Source of the DNA: Candidatus Electrothrix scaldis
GTDB taxonomy: Bacteria; Desulfobacterota; Desulfobulbia; Desulfobulbales; Desulfobulbaceae
Direction of reading: 5' to 3'
DNA: 64,000 nt
NCBI GenBank assembly: GCA_033584155.1
Contig: CP138355.1
Coordinates: forward strand, 3,047,826-3,111,825
The position numbers and the translations under genes were made by a program. This document shows, in pieces, positions 38,708 to 45,864 of the stretch (the first letter of the stretch is position 1; each line of letters opens with the position of its first letter). Below the pieces are notes generated by a model, which worked only from the letters and a program-made list of their open reading frames with translations, was not told the origin of the DNA and made no database searches.

Positions 38708-41700
38708 CTATTTGTTTTTTCTATGGGTATGGTCGCTGATAATGCGTTCTGCATCACGATCATAACTTTTTGCTAAATCCCTGAGAGTAGCGGCAAGGCG
38801 ATGGTATCCCGCATTTTCCACATCTTCTGCTTGTTGCCAATATTTTTCTGCAAGTTCCCGTTCTGGTTTGCCGGTGGGATCAACTGTATAAACGCCACGA
38901 GAACAAAATAGTCCCGAATAGAAACCATTTCTCATTTCATCAGCATCTCTAGCATTCAGAGCATTAGCCACAATTTTATTGATCCAGAGTCCACAGTCGT
39001 CTGCGGGGCAATGAATAAGAACCTTTCCGATATTATTAAACGCAACTCCCAAGTGTCCAGATTTAGCACAGAGATCTTTCACCTGATGTAGCCAGTTTGA
39101 AAAATGATCTTGGTCAAAGCTACCGTCTTCCTGCATTCCTGGCGGAATGTGCCAGTTATGTAGCAATCTCCAAGCATTTACTGCGATGTTCTTTTCTTCA
39201 TCAGATGAACTATCTTCAGTATCAGGATTTATTGAACGATAGACACGTTGAATTATTTGGCAGAAAAAATTCGGATCATTAGCAAGATGATTCTCAAGTA
39301 GCGTTGGTAATACACCATGATTGCCATCTAACAAAGGAAGATAGGCCGATTCTATATCAAAAAGGTCGTCCGGGTTAATATCTTGAGATTGCTGGAGGAA
39401 TTCTACGAGTTGAGCAGTGTAATAAGGACCAAATAAACTTGATGCGTCAAAAATAGAAGGTGCAGCAGCAAGCAGAACTTTTACACATTGCTTTATATTG
39501 ACTTTCTGTTTATAAACTCTAACTTTATGAATGCAATCAAGGGCAGCATGAGGCCTTCCAAACGTAACAAGTTTATCAAGAGCAACATTTAATTTGTTAT
39601 CATCTCCATCATAAAGTCTTATATCAGCTTTAAGCCAATATTCTTGCTGCGCACCACCTAACCAATTTTCAGCTCTGGCCCATGTTTCTTTGGTGAACGG
39701 CAGGTGGCTGAGAAAACATCCTATCTGACTCTTGCTCCATTCAGTTTTGTCTACCAGGTCAACCCATGTCCAACCATGAACAGAATAACGGCTGAATACG
39801 TACCAGCTAATAAAAAAGGATAAATCGCTACATTCCGATTCCAAATAATCAGGCAGCAGAGCAGCATCTATTTTTTCATTACCGATCTGGCCAAGAATAT
39901 CCCCAACTTGATTTGAGTAAATACCACATTGGGCAAAATCTATAATAGATTCAATACCTCCTGTTTGCAATATTTCCTTGAGAGCTTTTTTTTGATACTC
40001 AGTTAGTTTCTGCTTTCGGACCTTCCAGTCGTCATCGCTATCATAGAATTCAAAATCATGATCTGTAAATAACCGCTGGTGGCAATTGAATGGATTTGAT
40101 GGAGTTAGCTTGTCAGTAACGATTTGAATAGGTTCAAGTTGCTCATTATTCCATGCCCACGCAGCATGAGAATAAAGTCGATGTTTAGCAATGAATCTTT
40201 TAAGCTTATTCCAAATGATCAACCGTTTCTCTTCAGAAATACCTGTTATGTCATCTGAGGAAAGTACTGCTAAAAAATTATCAAAAGAAGGCTGCGGAAG
40301 ATTCTCAATGAGATTGGCAAGCTCACTGAGTCGGTCTATATCATGCCCTGCCAAAGAAACTGCACGTTCAGCGCAAAACGAGACTTGTTCCCAATACTCT
40401 TTTGTCGTCACACCTGCTTTCCAGTCGTCAGGTATAGTTTTACGCCATGAGGGCTTATAAGAACCCGATGTCATTTGATGCTGATTGGGTAAGAAATCAA
40501 GAACGAGTTGCCAGCCAATTTGTGGTAGTTCGTCACAAAGCGTTTTAATGGCCGCTTTTCGCTTCACAAGCGGGGCGATAGTGTGCGGCTTCCAGGGTAA
40601 AAGAATAGTTGAGAGAGAATTGGCAGGTCGATTTGACCAATTGCCGCCCGGGTCACGGTCGGCAAGCTCGCCAAGGAGAACGCAGACTCGTATCAGATAC
40701 TCGGTATCCCAAGCAAGTGCCTCTAACGAAGAGAGTAAGCCGATGAGATAATTATTACCCCAGACGACACCACTATCTTCTTGGGCAAAAAGTTTATCAA
40801 ATGGGCAGGGTGACAAGCGCAGGCAGTTTTCTACGGTATCCAAAAAATCGTCTGGTACAGCTTCGGCCAATACAGGAAGCAGGGTGTTCAAACTGCCCCA
40901 TAGCACCCAATCAGAATCTGCAAAAATATCATGAATGACGGCTAGAGCAATTTCCTCTGTCTTATCCCGTGAACAATTACTCAAAATGTTCGGGTAGCAC
41001 CCCAGTAAGGCCAATCCTTCAGCAATACCTTTTTTTAAAGAGAGCGACCACTTAAAATTTTTTCCATAGCTCGCCGCAGCAAATTGATCTTCTTTGGCTA
41101 GTTCAAAAACAGGATCACGTTCCGACAGCACTGAGACCGCGCATTCTTTGAATACCTCCAGATGCTGATCAAAAATACGTGAACCAAGTTGCTCCCATAG
41201 ATTGATACGCTCGGAAATTTTCCAGATACCGTTATGCAAGGAAAGAGGGCTGTCAGCAACTTGAAGCAGTTCTTGGATTTTTGGCGCAAGGTCGGAGTAA
41301 TCCTGTCCTGTTATTTTGGCGACGGTCGAAATGTCAGCTTCGTTTTTCTCGTTCCATCCACCGACCAATAACAACAAGGCAAGATCGACCGCGTATGGAT
41401 GCTTTTGCCACGATGATAGATCGTTCTTCCTTTGGACTTTGCTATTTTGGGCAAGATTTGTTATAGCAGCCTTCAATACTTGTAGACAAATTTCGGCTGT
41501 ATGTTGATCGGGAGAGAAGTCCTCCTGCATTTGCTGATATGGGTGGATGTAATTTCTAAAATCACGCAACACGTGACTGAAATTCTTTACATCTAATTTT
41601 AACAAGCCAAGCTCGTGCGCCACGTTAATAAACTGGGCAAGCGACCATTCTTGAAAGGGTTTAACCTTTTCATTCTTGTCTTTTGGGGATGCTGCTGACA

Positions 41701-42019
41701 GATTAAATTCTTTTGGATTTTTGCGGGCAATTCCATGCAGAATTCCTTCCAACATGCTGCCGCATAGGAAAATCGTCGCTAATGGAGAATGAGCAACACA
41801 GTTCTGAACCTCTTTCAGCCGTGCTTCCAAGATTGGAATAAGCCTATCTTCAATTGGGATTAAACGGATGGATAAGTCGTTAAATGTTCTTTCAAGAAAC
41901 TCCTTCTCAACTATTTCATGCTGATTTCCTGTCGTTTCTTCTTTGAAATTCATTTGGCCTGTGGTGTTGCGCAGTTGCTTACTTCTCGTATCCACTATAT
42001 TTTCAGCCCTTATATCCAT
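38708..42019 (-). CDS. 1103-residue helical protein with N-terminal HEPN-like domain
   Basis: The frame opens at TTG 42022; ATG 42019 is preferred, and Met24 is a further option. An N-terminal helical domain (about 45-185) holds LRDFRNYIHP, an R-x6-H arrangement (R153-H160) like the RNase motif of HEPN domains. Residues 200-1000 are largely helical with many Trp and acidic residues, like HEAT-type solenoids. No Walker A is present. The end, PERELAEKYWQQAEDVENAG then LRDLAKSYDRDAERI, resembles, from memory, the C-termini of some very large STAND/SIR2-linked bacterial proteins. I cannot name the family. It is a possible defence or stress protein, flanked by no nuclease or kinase gene. Confidence 0.75.
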   Translation of the reverse strand: MDIRAENIVDTRSKQLRNTTGQMNFKEETTGNQHEIVEKEFLERTFNDLSIRLIPIEDRLIPILEARLKEVQNCVAHSPLATIFLCGSMLEGILHGIARKNPKEFNLSAASPKDKNEKVKPFQEWSLAQFINVAHELGLLKLDVKNFSHVLRDFRNYIHPYQQMQEDFSPDQHTAEICLQVLKAAITNLAQNSKVQRKNDLSSWQKHPYAVDLALLLLVGGWNEKNEADISTVAKITGQDYSDLAPKIQELLQVADSPLSLHNGIWKISERINLWEQLGSRIFDQHLEVFKECAVSVLSERDPVFELAKEDQFAAASYGKNFKWSLSLKKGIAEGLALLGCYPNILSNCSRDKTEEIALAVIHDIFADSDWVLWGSLNTLLPVLAEAVPDDFLDTVENCLRLSPCPFDKLFAQEDSGVVWGNNYLIGLLSSLEALAWDTEYLIRVCVLLGELADRDPGGNWSNRPANSLSTILLPWKPHTIAPLVKRKAAIKTLCDELPQIGWQLVLDFLPNQHQMTSGSYKPSWRKTIPDDWKAGVTTKEYWEQVSFCAERAVSLAGHDIDRLSELANLIENLPQPSFDNFLAVLSSDDITGISEEKRLIIWNKLKRFIAKHRLYSHAAWAWNNEQLEPIQIVTDKLTPSNPFNCHQRLFTDHDFEFYDSDDDWKVRKQKLTEYQKKALKEILQTGGIESIIDFAQCGIYSNQVGDILGQIGNEKIDAALLPDYLESECSDLSFFISWYVFSRYSVHGWTWVDLVDKTEWSKSQIGCFLSHLPFTKETWARAENWLGGAQQEYWLKADIRLYDGDDNKLNVALDKLVTFGRPHAALDCIHKVRVYKQKVNIKQCVKVLLAAAPSIFDASSLFGPYYTAQLVEFLQQSQDINPDDLFDIESAYLPLLDGNHGVLPTLLENHLANDPNFFCQIIQRVYRSINPDTEDSSSDEEKNIAVNAWRLLHNWHIPPGMQEDGSFDQDHFSNWLHQVKDLCAKSGHLGVAFNNIGKVLIHCPADDCGLWINKIVANALNARDADEMRNGFYSGLFCSRGVYTVDPTGKPERELAEKYWQQAEDVENAGYHRLAATLRDLAKSYDRDAERIISDHTHRKNK

Positions 42020-42065
42020 CAAGGTTCATATCTGGCCTCATCAGTCAAACCTCATCTTACAGTAC

Positions 42066-42170: not shown

Positions 42171-42539
42171 ATGTCCCGAATTCCAAGAGACGAAGAGCGC
42201 GAAAAAAGAATTGACTTTGACGTAGTAGTTGACGCCTATGACGATGTAGAAAGGGCAATGGGCTGGTTTTACTACCTTGCCGAACAATGCGATTTCCCCT
42301 TCAAAGCACGATGTATCGCGGAACGATTGATCTCACCTTTACTTGTCGATGAGGAAGTAGAGGTCATCAGCGAGGCATCAGCCAAAGAATGTGAAAGAGA
42401 ACTTTTTGTGGAAGTACAGTGGAAGGATCGCCAGATGGCCGTGCCCTTGTCCCAACTCAGCATTATCGAATCGAGCAATACAAGCAAACAAATTGTCGAG
42501 GATTGGCAATACTGGGTTCAGCGAGGGTATGAGTTTTAA
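42171..42539 (+). CDS. Small acidic calcium-binding-family protein (PF11535-like)
   Basis: A 122-residue protein matching the pattern of the Calcium_binding family: PRDEEREKRIDFDVVVDAY, RAMGWFYYLAEQ, FPFKARCI, SPLLVDEEVEV and the terminal DWQYWVQRGYEF. It is soluble and acidic. The family name comes from calcium-binding phosphoproteins; the biological role is unclear. AGAAGGA precedes ATG 42171. Confidence 0.85.
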   Translation: MSRIPRDEEREKRIDFDVVVDAYDDVERAMGWFYYLAEQCDFPFKARCIAERLISPLLVDEEVEVISEASAKECERELFVEVQWKDRQMAVPLSQLSIIESSNTSKQIVEDWQYWVQRGYEF

Positions 42540-42577: not shown

Positions 42578-43654
42578 CTACTTAACCCTCACCCCCACAG
42601 CCCCTGCAACAGCCTCACCAATGCAGGCCGCTCCCTCGACCCCATTCTTTTGTAGAGCAGTCAGCAAGGCCGGTACCTGATCCTTCGGCAAAGTGAGCAA
42701 TAAACCTCCTGAGACCTGAGGATCATAGAGCAGCTCAGCTTCAGCCTCTGAAAGGTTAGCTCGAATTTTCAGGTCATGCTGCGACAGCAGGGCTCTGTTC
42801 GCCTTATTGCTCTCCGTTGTCACTCCTTTTCGAGACATCTCTATCGCCCCTGAATAAAAAAGAAGATCTTGGTATTTTAAAACCACTCTGGCCTGACCGC
42901 CACGAGCGATGTTGAGCAGACAACCAAGGATTCCTGTATTACTTACGTCAGAGCAGGCATGAATATCAAAGGATACTGCGGCTTCAATGACCTTATCTTG
43001 AAGAGAGACCAAAAGCGGCAGAGTCTCATCTTCCAGATTTTTCATTGAGTATTTTCCTGTACGTACCGCTTGCAAGAGTACGCCAGTGCCCAGGGGTTTA
43101 GTTAAAATAAGGGCATCCCCAGGCAGGGCTCCGGCATGGGTGATGACTTGCCCAGGATGCACCACGCCATTGACACAAAGCCCGTACTGCGGTTCCGCCT
43201 CCTGCATAAACTGACCACCGGTAAGACAGGCCCCAGCCTCAGTGACCTTGTCATAACCACCACGCAAAATCTCTTTGAGCATTCCCCTGTCCAGTTGCCT
43301 GGAAGGCAAGAAGGCCAGCTTGAGTATCTCCAACACAGTTCCCTTATTTTGCTGCTCACCAGGAGACATAATGAGATTGAGGGCCGTTACCGGCCTTCCA
43401 CCGAAAGCGTAAATTTTGCCAAGTGCATTAGCTGCGGCAATCTGGCCAAACCAGTAGGGAGCAGCAAGTGGCTGCCGAATGCAACTCACTGTGTTTATAG
43501 AGGCTATTTCAGATGACAGGCGATAAACCGAGGTGGATTCTGTGGTTTCAATACCAACCAACAGATTGGAATTTTCAGATAAGGGAAATTCTGCAAGTGC
43601 GTTCGACAGAACTGTCGAATTATTTGTAGGTACTCAACCGCAGCTTTTCGACAT
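42578..43654 (-). CDS. SelD-like selenophosphate synthetase paralogue, probable selenoprotein with lost catalytic Asps
   Basis: The AIRS/SelD fold is clear from LVGIETTESTSVYRL to the end (GQIAAANALGKIYAFGG, ACLTGGQ, ILTKPLGTGV, DPQVSGGLLL). The same frame continues upstream of TTG 43561 with NNSTVLSNALAEFPLSENSN, which still aligns with SelD, through a TGA at 43634-43636 to ATG 43654 (TTG 43669 also possible). The TGA sits in SCG-U-VPT, where SelD has its active-site Cys/Sec (GCGC-K or GC-U-AAK). A SECIS-like hairpin follows. However, the SelD lysine after Cys/Sec and the metal-binding Asps (DDAAVY, TTDFF, ISDIFAMGG) are replaced by T, T-S, S and K. It is therefore a Sec-bearing pseudoenzyme or a decaying SelD, not an ordinary SelD. 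Confidence 0.7.
43602..43636 (-). promoter_or_regulatory. Candidate bacterial SECIS element after an in-frame UGA
   Basis: On the minus strand the UGA (43636-43634) is followed by a 14-nt spacer and then UUCGACA-GUUC-UGUCGAA (43619-43602), a perfect 7-bp stem with a tetraloop. The loop starts 21 nt after the UGA and its first base is G, matching what I recall of bacterial SECIS rules (loop about 16-37 nt from UGA, G in the first two loop positions). The stem is also coding sequence, as bacterial SECIS elements are. Confidence 0.6.
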
Positions 43655-43687
43655 CACAGTTTTTTCCAAGAGATGAAGATGGATAAG

Positions 43688-43737
43688 AAGACAACAGCAA
43701 GGCAGTCAGATCTTTCCGACTGCCCTGAAATTGTCTT
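43688..43737 (-). terminator. Nested hairpin after the first cytochrome c peroxidase gene
   Basis: Outer arms AAGACAA (43688-43694) and TTGTCTT (43731-43737) enclose an inner 7-bp stem GGCAGTC (43701-43707) and GACTGCC (43718-43724). It lies between the peroxidase stop and the SelD-like start, 17 bases past the stop. No long T-run follows, so it may be a weak terminator or a processing hairpin in a common transcript. Confidence 0.45.
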
Positions 43738-43753: not shown

Positions 43754-44746
43754 CTACTCAAACGGTCTGGGGCGAGGAGTGGTATCGCTGGAAGGCGGCA
43801 GAATAGGAATTGTAAATGTGGGTTGCTCACCAGTCAGCGTTTTCAGAAAGGCCACCAGCTGTGCGTTTTCTTCCCGGCTGAACTTCTTCCCCAGCTGATG
43901 CCGAGCCATAGTGTCGACTGCCTCGGACAAGGTCTGAGCAGAGCCATCATGGAAGTACGGATAGGTTAACTCCACATTACGCAGGGTCGGCACTTTGAAC
44001 ATGAAATGGTGTTCCTCCCTACCTGTCACATCCTGACGACCTTTGGATGGGCTCTTGGCCTTAAACTCCTCAACCATTCCCATCTTGTAGAAATTTCCTC
44101 CTCCCATTGCCATGCCGTAATGGCAGGAAATACAGCCAGAGTCCTGAAACAGCTTATACCCTGCCTGCTCGTCCGCGTTTAAGGCATTTTTATCGCCTTG
44201 CAGCCATTGGTCAAAACGGGAATTGGGAGTCACCAAAGTCTTTTCAAACTCGGCAATAGCATCTGTAATCTGCTCTATATCAATTTTATCCTTGCCGTAG
44301 ATTCCTTTGAATTCAACAACGTAACCAGGAATTGACTGAAGTACTTCCTCTGCCAGACTGTGAGTAAAGGCCATTTCCCCTGGATTAGCAATTGGTCCAC
44401 CTGCCTGATCTTTGAGGTCCTTGGCACGACCATCCCAAAACTGGACAAAATTCATACTGGAGTTCAGGACAGTGGGTGCATTAATAGGTCCCTGCTGCCA
44501 GTTATGGCCAATGGAGGTTTGCAGGTTATCTGTGCCGCCCCTGCTGAGATTATGACAGGAGTTACAAGAGATAAAACCTGACTTAGAGAGACGAGGATCA
44601 AAAAAAAGTTTTTTTCCCAGCTCAGCCTTTTCTTTATTAATACCCGTCGCTGGAGTAATAGGTTCAACCGGTTTTTGCTCTGCTTGGGCGGCTCCGGTCG
44701 CCAATACTGCGCATGCAAGAAAAAGAGCGACTGCTGTTTTTTTCAT
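43754..44746 (-). CDS. Di-haem cytochrome c peroxidase
   Basis: A 330-residue periplasmic protein with a Sec signal peptide ending ATGAAQA. It has two haem c motifs, CNSCH (about 61-65) and CISCH (about 205-209), in the order of bacterial di-haem cytochrome c peroxidases of the CcpA/MauG superfamily. FVQFWDGRAKDLKDQAGGPI and FKVPTLRNVELTYPYFHDGSA are conserved segments. It reduces hydrogen peroxide with electrons from small c-type cytochromes. It is a close paralogue of the gene just upstream (44854-45864), and its transcript may continue into the SelD-like gene. Confidence 0.95.
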   Translation of the reverse strand: MKKTAVALFLACAVLATGAAQAEQKPVEPITPATGINKEKAELGKKLFFDPRLSKSGFISCNSCHNLSRGGTDNLQTSIGHNWQQGPINAPTVLNSSMNFVQFWDGRAKDLKDQAGGPIANPGEMAFTHSLAEEVLQSIPGYVVEFKGIYGKDKIDIEQITDAIAEFEKTLVTPNSRFDQWLQGDKNALNADEQAGYKLFQDSGCISCHYGMAMGGGNFYKMGMVEEFKAKSPSKGRQDVTGREEHHFMFKVPTLRNVELTYPYFHDGSAQTLSEAVDTMARHQLGKKFSREENAQLVAFLKTLTGEQPTFTIPILPPSSDTTPRPRPFE

Positions 44747-44853: not shown

Positions 44854-45864
44854 TTACTCAAAAGGCTTGGGCTGCGGGGTTTTTTCGTTTGAAGGCGGTA
44901 AAATCGGCAGCGTGAATGACGGCTGCTCACCCGTCAGGCTTTTCAGAAAGGCCACGATCTGTGCATTCTGCTTATCAGTAAATTTTGCACCAAGCTGTAG
45001 GCGACCCATAATATCAACAGCCTCAGTCAGGGTCTCAGCCTCACCATCATGGAAATACGGATAGGTCATTTCCACGTTTCGCAGAGTCGGCACCTTGAAA
45101 GCAAAACGATCTTCATCCTTGCCAGTCACAGCCTTTCGACCTTCAGCCGGACTTTTGGACTTGTATTCTTCCACTACGCCCATTTTCTGGAAGGAGGATC
45201 CACCCATTGCCACGCCGTAATGACAGGAAATACATCCAGAATCCTTAAACAACTTGTAGCCTGCCTGTTCATCAGCAGTCAGGGCATCTTTATCGCCCAG
45301 TAGCCATTGGTCAAAGCGAGAGTTCGGGGTCACTAAGGTTTTTTCAAACTCAGCAATGGCATCAGTGGCCCGATCAATATTAATTGCATCATCACCAAAA
45401 ACTTGCTTGAATTCGGTAATATATCCTGGAATAGACGCCAAGACATCTTCAGCCATCTCATGGGTAAATGCCATCTCGCCGGGATTGGCGATGGGCCCCC
45501 CGGCCTGATCTTTCAACGTTTCTGCCCGACCATCCCAGAACTGAACAAAATTCAGGCTGGAGTTTAGTACAGTAGGAGCGTTAATCGGACCTTTCTGCCA
45601 GTTATGACCAATAGAGGTTTTCAGGTTGTCTGACCCACCCATGCTTAAGTTATGGCAGGAATTACAAGAGATAAAACCTGACTTGGAAAGGCGAGGATCA
45701 AAAAAAAGTTTTTTGCCGAGCTCGGCCTTGGCCAAATTAATTTCCTTTACTGGCGGAATAGGCTGCACCGGTTCTTCTTCCGCTGCACCTGCTGCACCTG
45801 CTGCACCTGCTGCACCCAGAATAGCCATGCAAAGAAATGACATCACGCCTGATTTGACCTTCAT
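44854..45864 (-). CDS. Di-haem cytochrome c peroxidase, paralogue
   Basis: A 336-residue protein closely similar along its whole length to the neighbouring peroxidase: CNSCH and CISCH haem sites, FVQFWDGRAETLKDQAGGPI and YPYFHDGEAETL. The signal peptide is unusual: its end is lengthened by tandem Gly-Ala-Ala triplets (AAGAAGAAGAAEEE). AGGAGG lies 6 nt before ATG 45864. The pair arose by duplication; the sequences have diverged enough that separate regulation or substrates are plausible. Confidence 0.95.
   Translation of the reverse strand: MKVKSGVMSFLCMAILGAAGAAGAAGAAEEEPVQPIPPVKEINLAKAELGKKLFFDPRLSKSGFISCNSCHNLSMGGSDNLKTSIGHNWQKGPINAPTVLNSSLNFVQFWDGRAETLKDQAGGPIANPGEMAFTHEMAEDVLASIPGYITEFKQVFGDDAINIDRATDAIAEFEKTLVTPNSRFDQWLLGDKDALTADEQAGYKLFKDSGCISCHYGVAMGGSSFQKMGVVEEYKSKSPAEGRKAVTGKDEDRFAFKVPTLRNVEMTYPYFHDGEAETLTEAVDIMGRLQLGAKFTDKQNAQIVAFLKSLTGEQPSFTLPILPPSNEKTPQPKPFE
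45782..45817. repeat. Four 9-bp tandem repeats in the peroxidase signal region
   Basis: GCTGCACCT occurs three times (45782-45808) plus a fourth unit ending CCC (45809-45817). On the coding strand it encodes repeated Gly-Ala-Ala right at the signal peptidase region. Copy number can change by slippage in steps of three residues without breaking the frame. Confidence 0.85.

Follow-up and report, generated by a model that had tools for sequence, protein, structure and literature searches.

A conserved SelD paralogue of Candidatus Electrothrix with an in-frame UGA, a SECIS-like hairpin and three replaced metal ligands: a putative selenoprotein pseudoenzyme

The cable bacterium Candidatus Electrothrix scaldis carries a paralogue of the selenophosphate synthetase SelD in which an in-frame UGA at the active-site position and the RNA hairpin that follows it are conserved in all six copies found, while three of the four metal ligands of the kinase site are replaced. 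Our best overall explanation, weighted towards what the paralogue is and held at about even odds as a whole, is a conserved selenoprotein pseudoenzyme that would act in selenium handling. The gene lies within a stretch of 64,000 nucleotides (the window) from a closed, single-contig genome of 5,089,909 bases; it occupies positions 42578–43654 of the minus strand, the strand of all of its features given below. The reading frame starts with an ATG (43654–43652), meets the TGA six codons on (43634–43636) and is then open for 351 codons to a TAG (42578–42580), for a product of 358 aa with the UGA read as Sec7. The context M-S-K-S-C-G-[UGA]-V-P-T aligns the UGA with Cys17 of E. coli SelD, and Cys5 (43640–43642) completes a Cys-x-Sec motif that is invariant (6/6 copies). 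Both AIRS domains are matched in Pfam, and the protein scores 217.6 bits against TIGR00476 (selD), over the cut-off of 125; it stays under the cut-offs of NF002098, also a SelD model (185.7 bits, cut-off 299), and NF010705 (63.0 bits, cut-off 291). It is 57–60% identical to the canonical SelD of the same genome. The six paralogues share an insertion of 19 residues (43310–43366) that none of the seven canonical SelDs in the alignment has. AlphaFold predictions reached a mean pLDDT of 31.0 and 32.9, too poor for use. A sequence-only reading of the window had proposed a Sec-containing SelD paralogue with the UGA in the SelD active-site loop and with SelD similarity continuing upstream beyond 43561 and through the UGA. 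The position and the open frame are borne out, the similarity is real in that the copies from five relatives align through, and the retention of UGA and hairpin in 6/6 copies supports the proposal itself.

The same reading had pointed to the selenium machinery of the genome as a check, and a canonical SelD with one in-frame TGA, SelA, SelB and a tRNA-Sec (75.3 bits; the window genome being the sole genome searched for it) are all present elsewhere in that genome, so that the set required by the bacterial SECIS (bSECIS) model is complete. Among the eight genomes of the genus set, where G000 denotes the window genome and G005 its sister and closest relative, SelA was found in 8/8 and a full-length SelB over cut-off in six; SelB is in pieces in G006, a genome 69% complete, and was not found in G004. 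A canonical SelD with one TGA is present in 6/8 genomes and stands alongside the paralogue in five of the six that carry the latter. The sixth is G001, where no canonical SelD was found. In G000 selD is preceded by a dihydrouridine synthase gene; the G001 counterpart of this gene stands 265 bases short of a contig end, on the side where selD would be expected, and an assembly gap is thus the likelier reason for the missing gene.

The paralogue itself is present in six of the eight Electrothrix genomes (G000, G001, G003, G004, G005 and G007), with 58–94% identity to the window protein, and is absent from the two others, which are 93% and 69% complete. A paralogue profile run over 257 genomes of the class recovered the six Electrothrix copies at 637–711 bits; among the matches listed, the next best was the canonical SelD of G002, at most 468 bits. 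A single-protein query of wider genome contigs gave no paralogue match, and an alignment query of the same contigs gave two, one in Ca. Electrothrix aarhusensis MCF and one in a Desulfobulbaceae MAG, apparently already among the six copies. Two scans of viral contigs gave no match. The residue-by-residue reading used below covered the SelD rows of the fetched loci, Cys-type SelDs aside, so that a more diverged paralogue may exist elsewhere in the class. In G002 the folC-HNH-peroxidase cluster that accompanies the paralogue in other genomes is present, and no paralogue remnant was seen in the 1.5 kb beyond it. In a tree, the six paralogues group together (100/100) on long branches, G001 included, and fall outside the separate clade formed by the six canonical Electrothrix SelD copies. 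A duplicate of a Sec-containing selD would have become a separate gene in Ca. Electrothrix.

The hairpin after the UGA carries much of the argument for selenocysteine. The sequence-only reading had described a perfect 7-bp stem with a GUUC loop starting 14 nt after the UGA, and the window contains it as described (43602–43619; TTCGACA-GTTC-TGTCGAA), with the apical loop 21 nt past the UGA. The conservation of both elements, likewise named as a check, proved complete: with the UGA in 6/6 copies, all 18 nt of the hairpin are identical in 6/6 and form the longest identical run of the gene, the next being 11 nt (shuffle test of the longest run, 0.005). Codon usage tells the same: 94 alignment columns hold a four-to-six-fold degenerate residue common to all six copies, and 15 of them show one codon throughout, namely 5/5 inside the hairpin versus 10/89 elsewhere (hypergeometric, 5e-5). 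A pattern scan of 257 genomes allowing at most two mismatches found the hairpin in the six Electrothrix and, at the limit of two mismatches, once more in G087, within a remnant of selD; a reversed control pattern matched one genome. In canonical SelD of the order, the same seven positions pair in 40/40 loci read (one per genome, all Sec forms). Compared with these, the paralogues have exchanged a C-G pair for U-A at +16/+31, with both sides changed, and a G.U pair for A-U at +21/+26. Since the double pair change turns Pro into Ser and Asp into Asn, the RNA pairing has been kept while the protein changed. The outer pair at +14/+33 is formed in 35/40 canonical loci and in 0/6 paralogues, which counts against our explanation.

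The bacterial SECIS model, as set out in extracts of PMC13188914, asks for an apical loop of 3–9 nt, an upper stem of 4–16 bp, a G at loop position 1 or 2, 16–37 nt from UGA to loop and a minimum free energy (MFE) of at most -7.5 kcal/mol. With a 4-nt loop, 7 bp, the loop GUUC and 21 nt, the hairpin falls within these limits, and so do its energies over stretches of 47–48 nt that we chose ourselves (window, -9.9; G003/G004, -9.2; G001, -12.4), although these are not clearly better than those of shuffles. The suggested fit to SECIS models therefore stands as far as the limits of the model go, but the folding energy is ordinary in three of the four stretches folded: the 47-nt window stretch has a z of -1.13, with 33/200 shuffles as good, and z is -0.95 in the canonical gene and -0.86 in G003/G004, while the fourth stretch, that of G001, reaches -2.06. 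Rfam at gathering score gave no match within the window. Hairpin stability alone is not unusual, then, and it is the conservation that exceeds chance. Because UGA and hairpin are both conserved, decoding of the UGA as selenocysteine by SelB and tRNA-Sec via the following hairpin is strongly supported and, in our view, highly probable.

Decoding of this kind implies translation from upstream of the UGA, which would begin at an ATG, or at a GTG in one species. The signals in front of these starts are uneven: AAGGAGG lies just upstream of an ATG 20 codons before the UGA in G004, and GAGGAAG just upstream of ATGs 29 and 20 codons before it in G003 and G007, respectively. The window and G005 have a weak GGA only, before the ATG six codons ahead of the UGA, and the GTG of G001 has no evident ribosome-binding site. 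The clear upstream sites of three copies speak for our explanation, and that only 3/6 copies have one counts against it. In a rival explanation the gene is a decaying selD copy or its product starts downstream of the UGA. Downstream, the first start falls at codon 25, 25, 49, 1, 48 and 2 past the UGA in G000, G005, G003, G007, G004 and G001, respectively. A GTG at codon 49 is common to G000, G005, G003 and G004 and could be counted for this rival, but it has no evident ribosome-binding site and the starts as a whole are scattered. The sequence-only reading had named three findings that would tell against it, namely the lack of homologues aligning upstream of 43561, missing selenium machinery and close relatives with a start past the UGA; none of them came true, a downstream start being improbable in view of the differing positions.

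The substitution pattern bears on the same question. Pairwise dN/dS (Nei-Gojobori, with dS near saturation between clades) is 0.11–0.26 in 14/15 paralogue pairs and 0.45 for G000–G005, against 0.03–0.10 in 18/21 canonical SelD pairs, the remaining three having infinite dS. The paralogue is constrained, though less than canonical SelD. The rival can draw on these higher ratios, on the loss in both G000 and G005 of the lysine that follows the Sec position, and on a 1-nt frameshift after DPQTS in the copy of Ca. E. aarhusensis (L022/L068), which sits close to the end of a draft contig and may be an error or real. The G000–G005 pair does differ at 22 residues, against 16 codons with synonymous changes, and at 93.6% identity the paralogue falls below 9/10 neighbours compared (97.9–99.7%); because of this identity, the ratio of 0.45 and the shared loss of the lysine, constraint may be loosening in this pair. 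Against decay, however, 5/6 frames are intact over 351 codons, the three paralogue clades are separated by a dS of about 1.0–1.8 with a dN/dS of 0.14–0.26, and no part of the gene is better conserved than the hairpin. Taken together, the conservation, the dN/dS values and the positions of the starts disfavour both the pseudogene and the downstream-start versions, which we consider most improbable. The earlier alternative of a very recently decaying SelD-Sec is unsupported on the same grounds, the gene being kept in six genomes with such a dS between clades and a dN/dS well below 1.

What sets the paralogue apart from an active SelD is its metal site. The metal ligands, which we take to be Asp51, Asp68, Asp91 and Asp227, were located here by alignment. 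SelD is described in parts of PMC4210487 as requiring Sec/Cys-x-x-Lys, four metal-holding Asp and Asn87. The N-terminal catalytic Sec or Cys is represented by the UGA in 6/6 copies. Catalytic Lys20 is replaced by Thr10 (43625–43627) in the window protein, which thus does not show Sec/Cys-x-x-Lys; this loss is restricted to G000 and G005, the lysine being kept in 4/6 copies. Asp51 has become Ser40 (43535–43537; Ser in 6/6), Asp68 has become Ser57 (43484–43486; Ser in five copies, Glu in one) and Asp91 has become Lys80 (43415–43417; Lys in 6/6), so that among the four ligands Asp227 alone is kept, as Asp236 (42947–42949; 6/6). Asn87 is retained in 5/6 paralogues, the window included, and is His in G001. 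Canonical His236 is replaced by a new invariant cysteine, Cys245 (42920–42922; 6/6), the Thr-Gly-Phe of the TDITGFG loop is replaced, and the first D of DDAA, a non-ligand, is still D in 4/6 copies. In the canonical SelD rows the four Asps and Asn87 are kept in 54/54, repeats of the same gene included; the N-terminal Lys belonged to the motif that selected 47 of these 54 rows, hence they are no test of it, and three further canonical rows, cut before the N-terminal motif, were left out. The sequence-only reading had taken the lysine and the catalytic Asps, those of DDAAVY, TTDFF and ISDIFAMGG, as replaced. This stands for the lysine in G000 and G005 but not in the four other copies, and for three of the four ligands in 6/6 copies but not for Asp227 or for the non-ligand D of DDAA. 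Its wider point, the loss of kinase metal ligands, is supported, and the same three Asp losses, which it had suggested looking for in homologues, are common to all six Electrothrix copies.

With three of the four ATP-site metal ligands gone, the paralogue would very probably make no selenophosphate by the known route. A product that still does so with an altered metal site, or that serves as a low-activity back-up SelD, would fit the TIGR00476 score above cut-off, the retention of Asp227 (6/6), Asn87 (5/6) and Lys20 (4/6) and the genome of G001, where no canonical SelD was found. Set against these are the replacement of Asp51, Asp68 and Asp91 in every copy and the canonical enzyme alongside in 5/6 genomes, the gap in G001 being likelier one of assembly, and we regard such activity as very unlikely.

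As to the role, we tentatively favour, at well short of even odds, a pseudoenzyme in selenium handling, either a selenide carrier or a partner of SelD. In this mechanism, proposed from sequence comparison, the Sec beside the conserved Cys would bind selenide as a perselenide and pass it to canonical SelD or to SelA, possibly within a mixed SelD/pseudo-SelD dimer, and the Lys that replaces Asp91 would leave the pocket without metal. SelD proteins are dimeric, with the ATP pocket between chains, and their N-terminus helps to bind SelA (extracts of PMC7595633), and it is this arrangement that makes a mixed dimer possible. A carrier role gains plausibility on two counts: a 2026 review (passage of PMC13188914) describes the donor that supplies SelD with selenium in vivo as "incompletely elucidated", and PRDX6 carries selenide to selenophosphate synthetase in mammals through a perselenide (extracts of PMC11327102). 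The more specific form of the proposal, in which the protein is dedicated to carrying selenide or to acting with SelD/SelA and keeps selenium bound as Sec-Se without phosphorylating it, is by itself rather unlikely. If true, it would give a bacterial selenium donor for SelD in sulfide-dwelling cable bacteria, with selenide kept apart from sulfide.

Alternatively, the SelD scaffold might serve a thiol-selenol redox enzyme, with the AIRS fold as a platform only, a possibility that we hold for somewhat doubtful. Cys5-x-Sec7 would then cycle via a selenenylsulfide, perhaps with Cys245, and reduce peroxides or other oxidants. The invariant Cys-x-Sec and the new invariant Cys245 are what such an enzyme could use, and most bacterial selenoproteins serve redox reactions (parts of PMC9312934). 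However, Cys-x-Sec is also found in the canonical SelDs of the order, in 47/50 rows printed (rows picked by a Cys-requiring motif, the other three being cut before it), and therefore looks inherited. We lean, by a small margin, towards the carrier or partner role because of this inheritance, because much of the SelD sequence is kept together with the Sec loop, and because of the dimeric build of SelDs and the part of their N-terminus in SelA binding; no sequence feature distinguishes a carrier from a redox protein.

The neighbourhood was the other support for a redox role. In the window two di-haem peroxidases stand next door on the minus strand, a di-haem cytochrome c peroxidase/MauG-like gene (43754–44746; PF03150) and a second di-haem peroxidase (44854–45864; PF03150). 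Such di-haem peroxidases are usually periplasmic. In G000, G005, G004 and G001 the paralogue is preceded by folC, a gene for an HNH protein and di-haem peroxidase genes, one or two in number, with a single one in G001. In G003 and G007 the peroxidase cluster lies about 0.42 and 0.55 Mb from the paralogue, so that adjacency holds in 4/6 genomes only, and in the window a terminator-like hairpin of 13 pairs (43698–43727, minus strand) separates peroxidase and paralogue, from a scan that found five terminator-type hairpins overall versus a shuffle mean of 5.1, so no excess. The peroxidase–paralogue link is weak. The earlier suggestion of a redox role beside two peroxidases is thus reduced to its first half: a redox role is possible, but the tie to the peroxidases did not hold up.

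Comparison with known systems places the paralogue between several of them. It resembles Sec-form SelD/SPS2 (TIGR00476) in overall sequence, in the place of Sec, in SECIS position, in Asp227 and mostly in Asn87, and differs from it in the replacement of Asp51, Asp68 and Asp91 (6/6), in the change of His236 to Cys, in the 19-residue insertion and in the loss of Lys in 2/6 copies. Animal SPS1 (SEPHS1) offers a comparable history, being a Sec-SelD duplicate thought to have left selenoprotein synthesis with the original gene retained (extracts of PMC4561486), much as the paralogue is a duplicate of Sec-SelD beside a retained original. SPS1 has neither Sec nor Cys in its active site but Thr (vertebrates), Gly (tunicates), Leu (annelids) or, in some insects, Arg, and insect SPS1-UGA shows that the duplicate kept its UGA in some lineages; readthrough of the SPS UGA with insertion of other residues has been proposed in animals (all from the same extracts). 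Its nucleotide site is kept, as seen in ADP- and AMPcP-bound structures (parts of PMC7595633). Unlike SPS1, the paralogue has the UGA in 6/6 copies with a conserved SECIS-like hairpin, goes with SelB and tRNA-Sec in the window genome, and has lost three metal ligands instead. The insect SPS1-UGA copies are, by analogy, a partial precedent. A further side family derived from SelD, in which the active-site position is likewise retained, is formed by the SelD-like proteins of Crenarchaeota, which have Cys, keep all functional residues and occur in hosts without known selenium use (extracts of PMC4210487); the paralogue differs from them in that it lacks part of the SelD functional residues. PRDX6 shares with it the proposed perselenide hand-over to selenophosphate synthetase, but is a peroxiredoxin and no relative of SelD, with Cys in place of Sec (extracts of PMC11327102).

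In open-licence literature, animal SPS1 and the archaeal SelD-like family surfaced as SelD paralogues, and no paper was found there on selenophosphate synthetase as a pseudoenzyme or on selenoproteins of cable bacteria, which does not prove their absence in print; the main text of PMC13188914 has no occurrence of cable, Desulfobulb or paralog. Animal SPS1 duplicates gave up Sec, or were left with a UGA without a selenium role, and retained the fold (parts of PMC4561486). The Electrothrix paralogue would reverse this pattern, with UGA and RNA signal the best kept and the kinase metal ligands lost. It would represent a selenoprotein subfamily that gene callers likely truncate at the UGA, and it could serve as a natural test of the function of the SelD selenocysteine apart from phosphorylation, and of selenium delivery to SelD.

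Several minor observations were made on other SelD genes and on the surroundings of the paralogue. Two selD genes stand in tandem in G109 (C75; L098/L038), and other genomes of that genus also have two SelD matches; the tandem was rejected as a parallel case, as the second copy, where read, keeps the Asps. The G087 match of the hairpin scan was likewise rejected as a paralogue. It belongs to a selD remnant (C198:9349, L067) whose SECIS region, at about position 1500, lies inside a long perfect palindrome, EQLRRPTVLSDALAAQ, followed by a SelD-like stretch with an early stop. A third viral scan found a Cys-type SelD with its Asps in place at 1935–2996 of IMGVR_UViG_3300035670_000038 (L141), adjoining a 468-aa protein with, by eye, an HNH-like end. 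Just downstream of the paralogue and convergent with it, the window holds the gene of a CcbP-type calcium-binding protein (42171–42539; PF11535), also present in G005. At 38708–42022 a protein of 1104 aa without Pfam or NCBIfam match is encoded; it is the tenth of the neighbours compared between G000 and G005, 63% identical to its G005 counterpart where the nine others reach 97.9–99.7%, and its N-terminal part varies between genomes.
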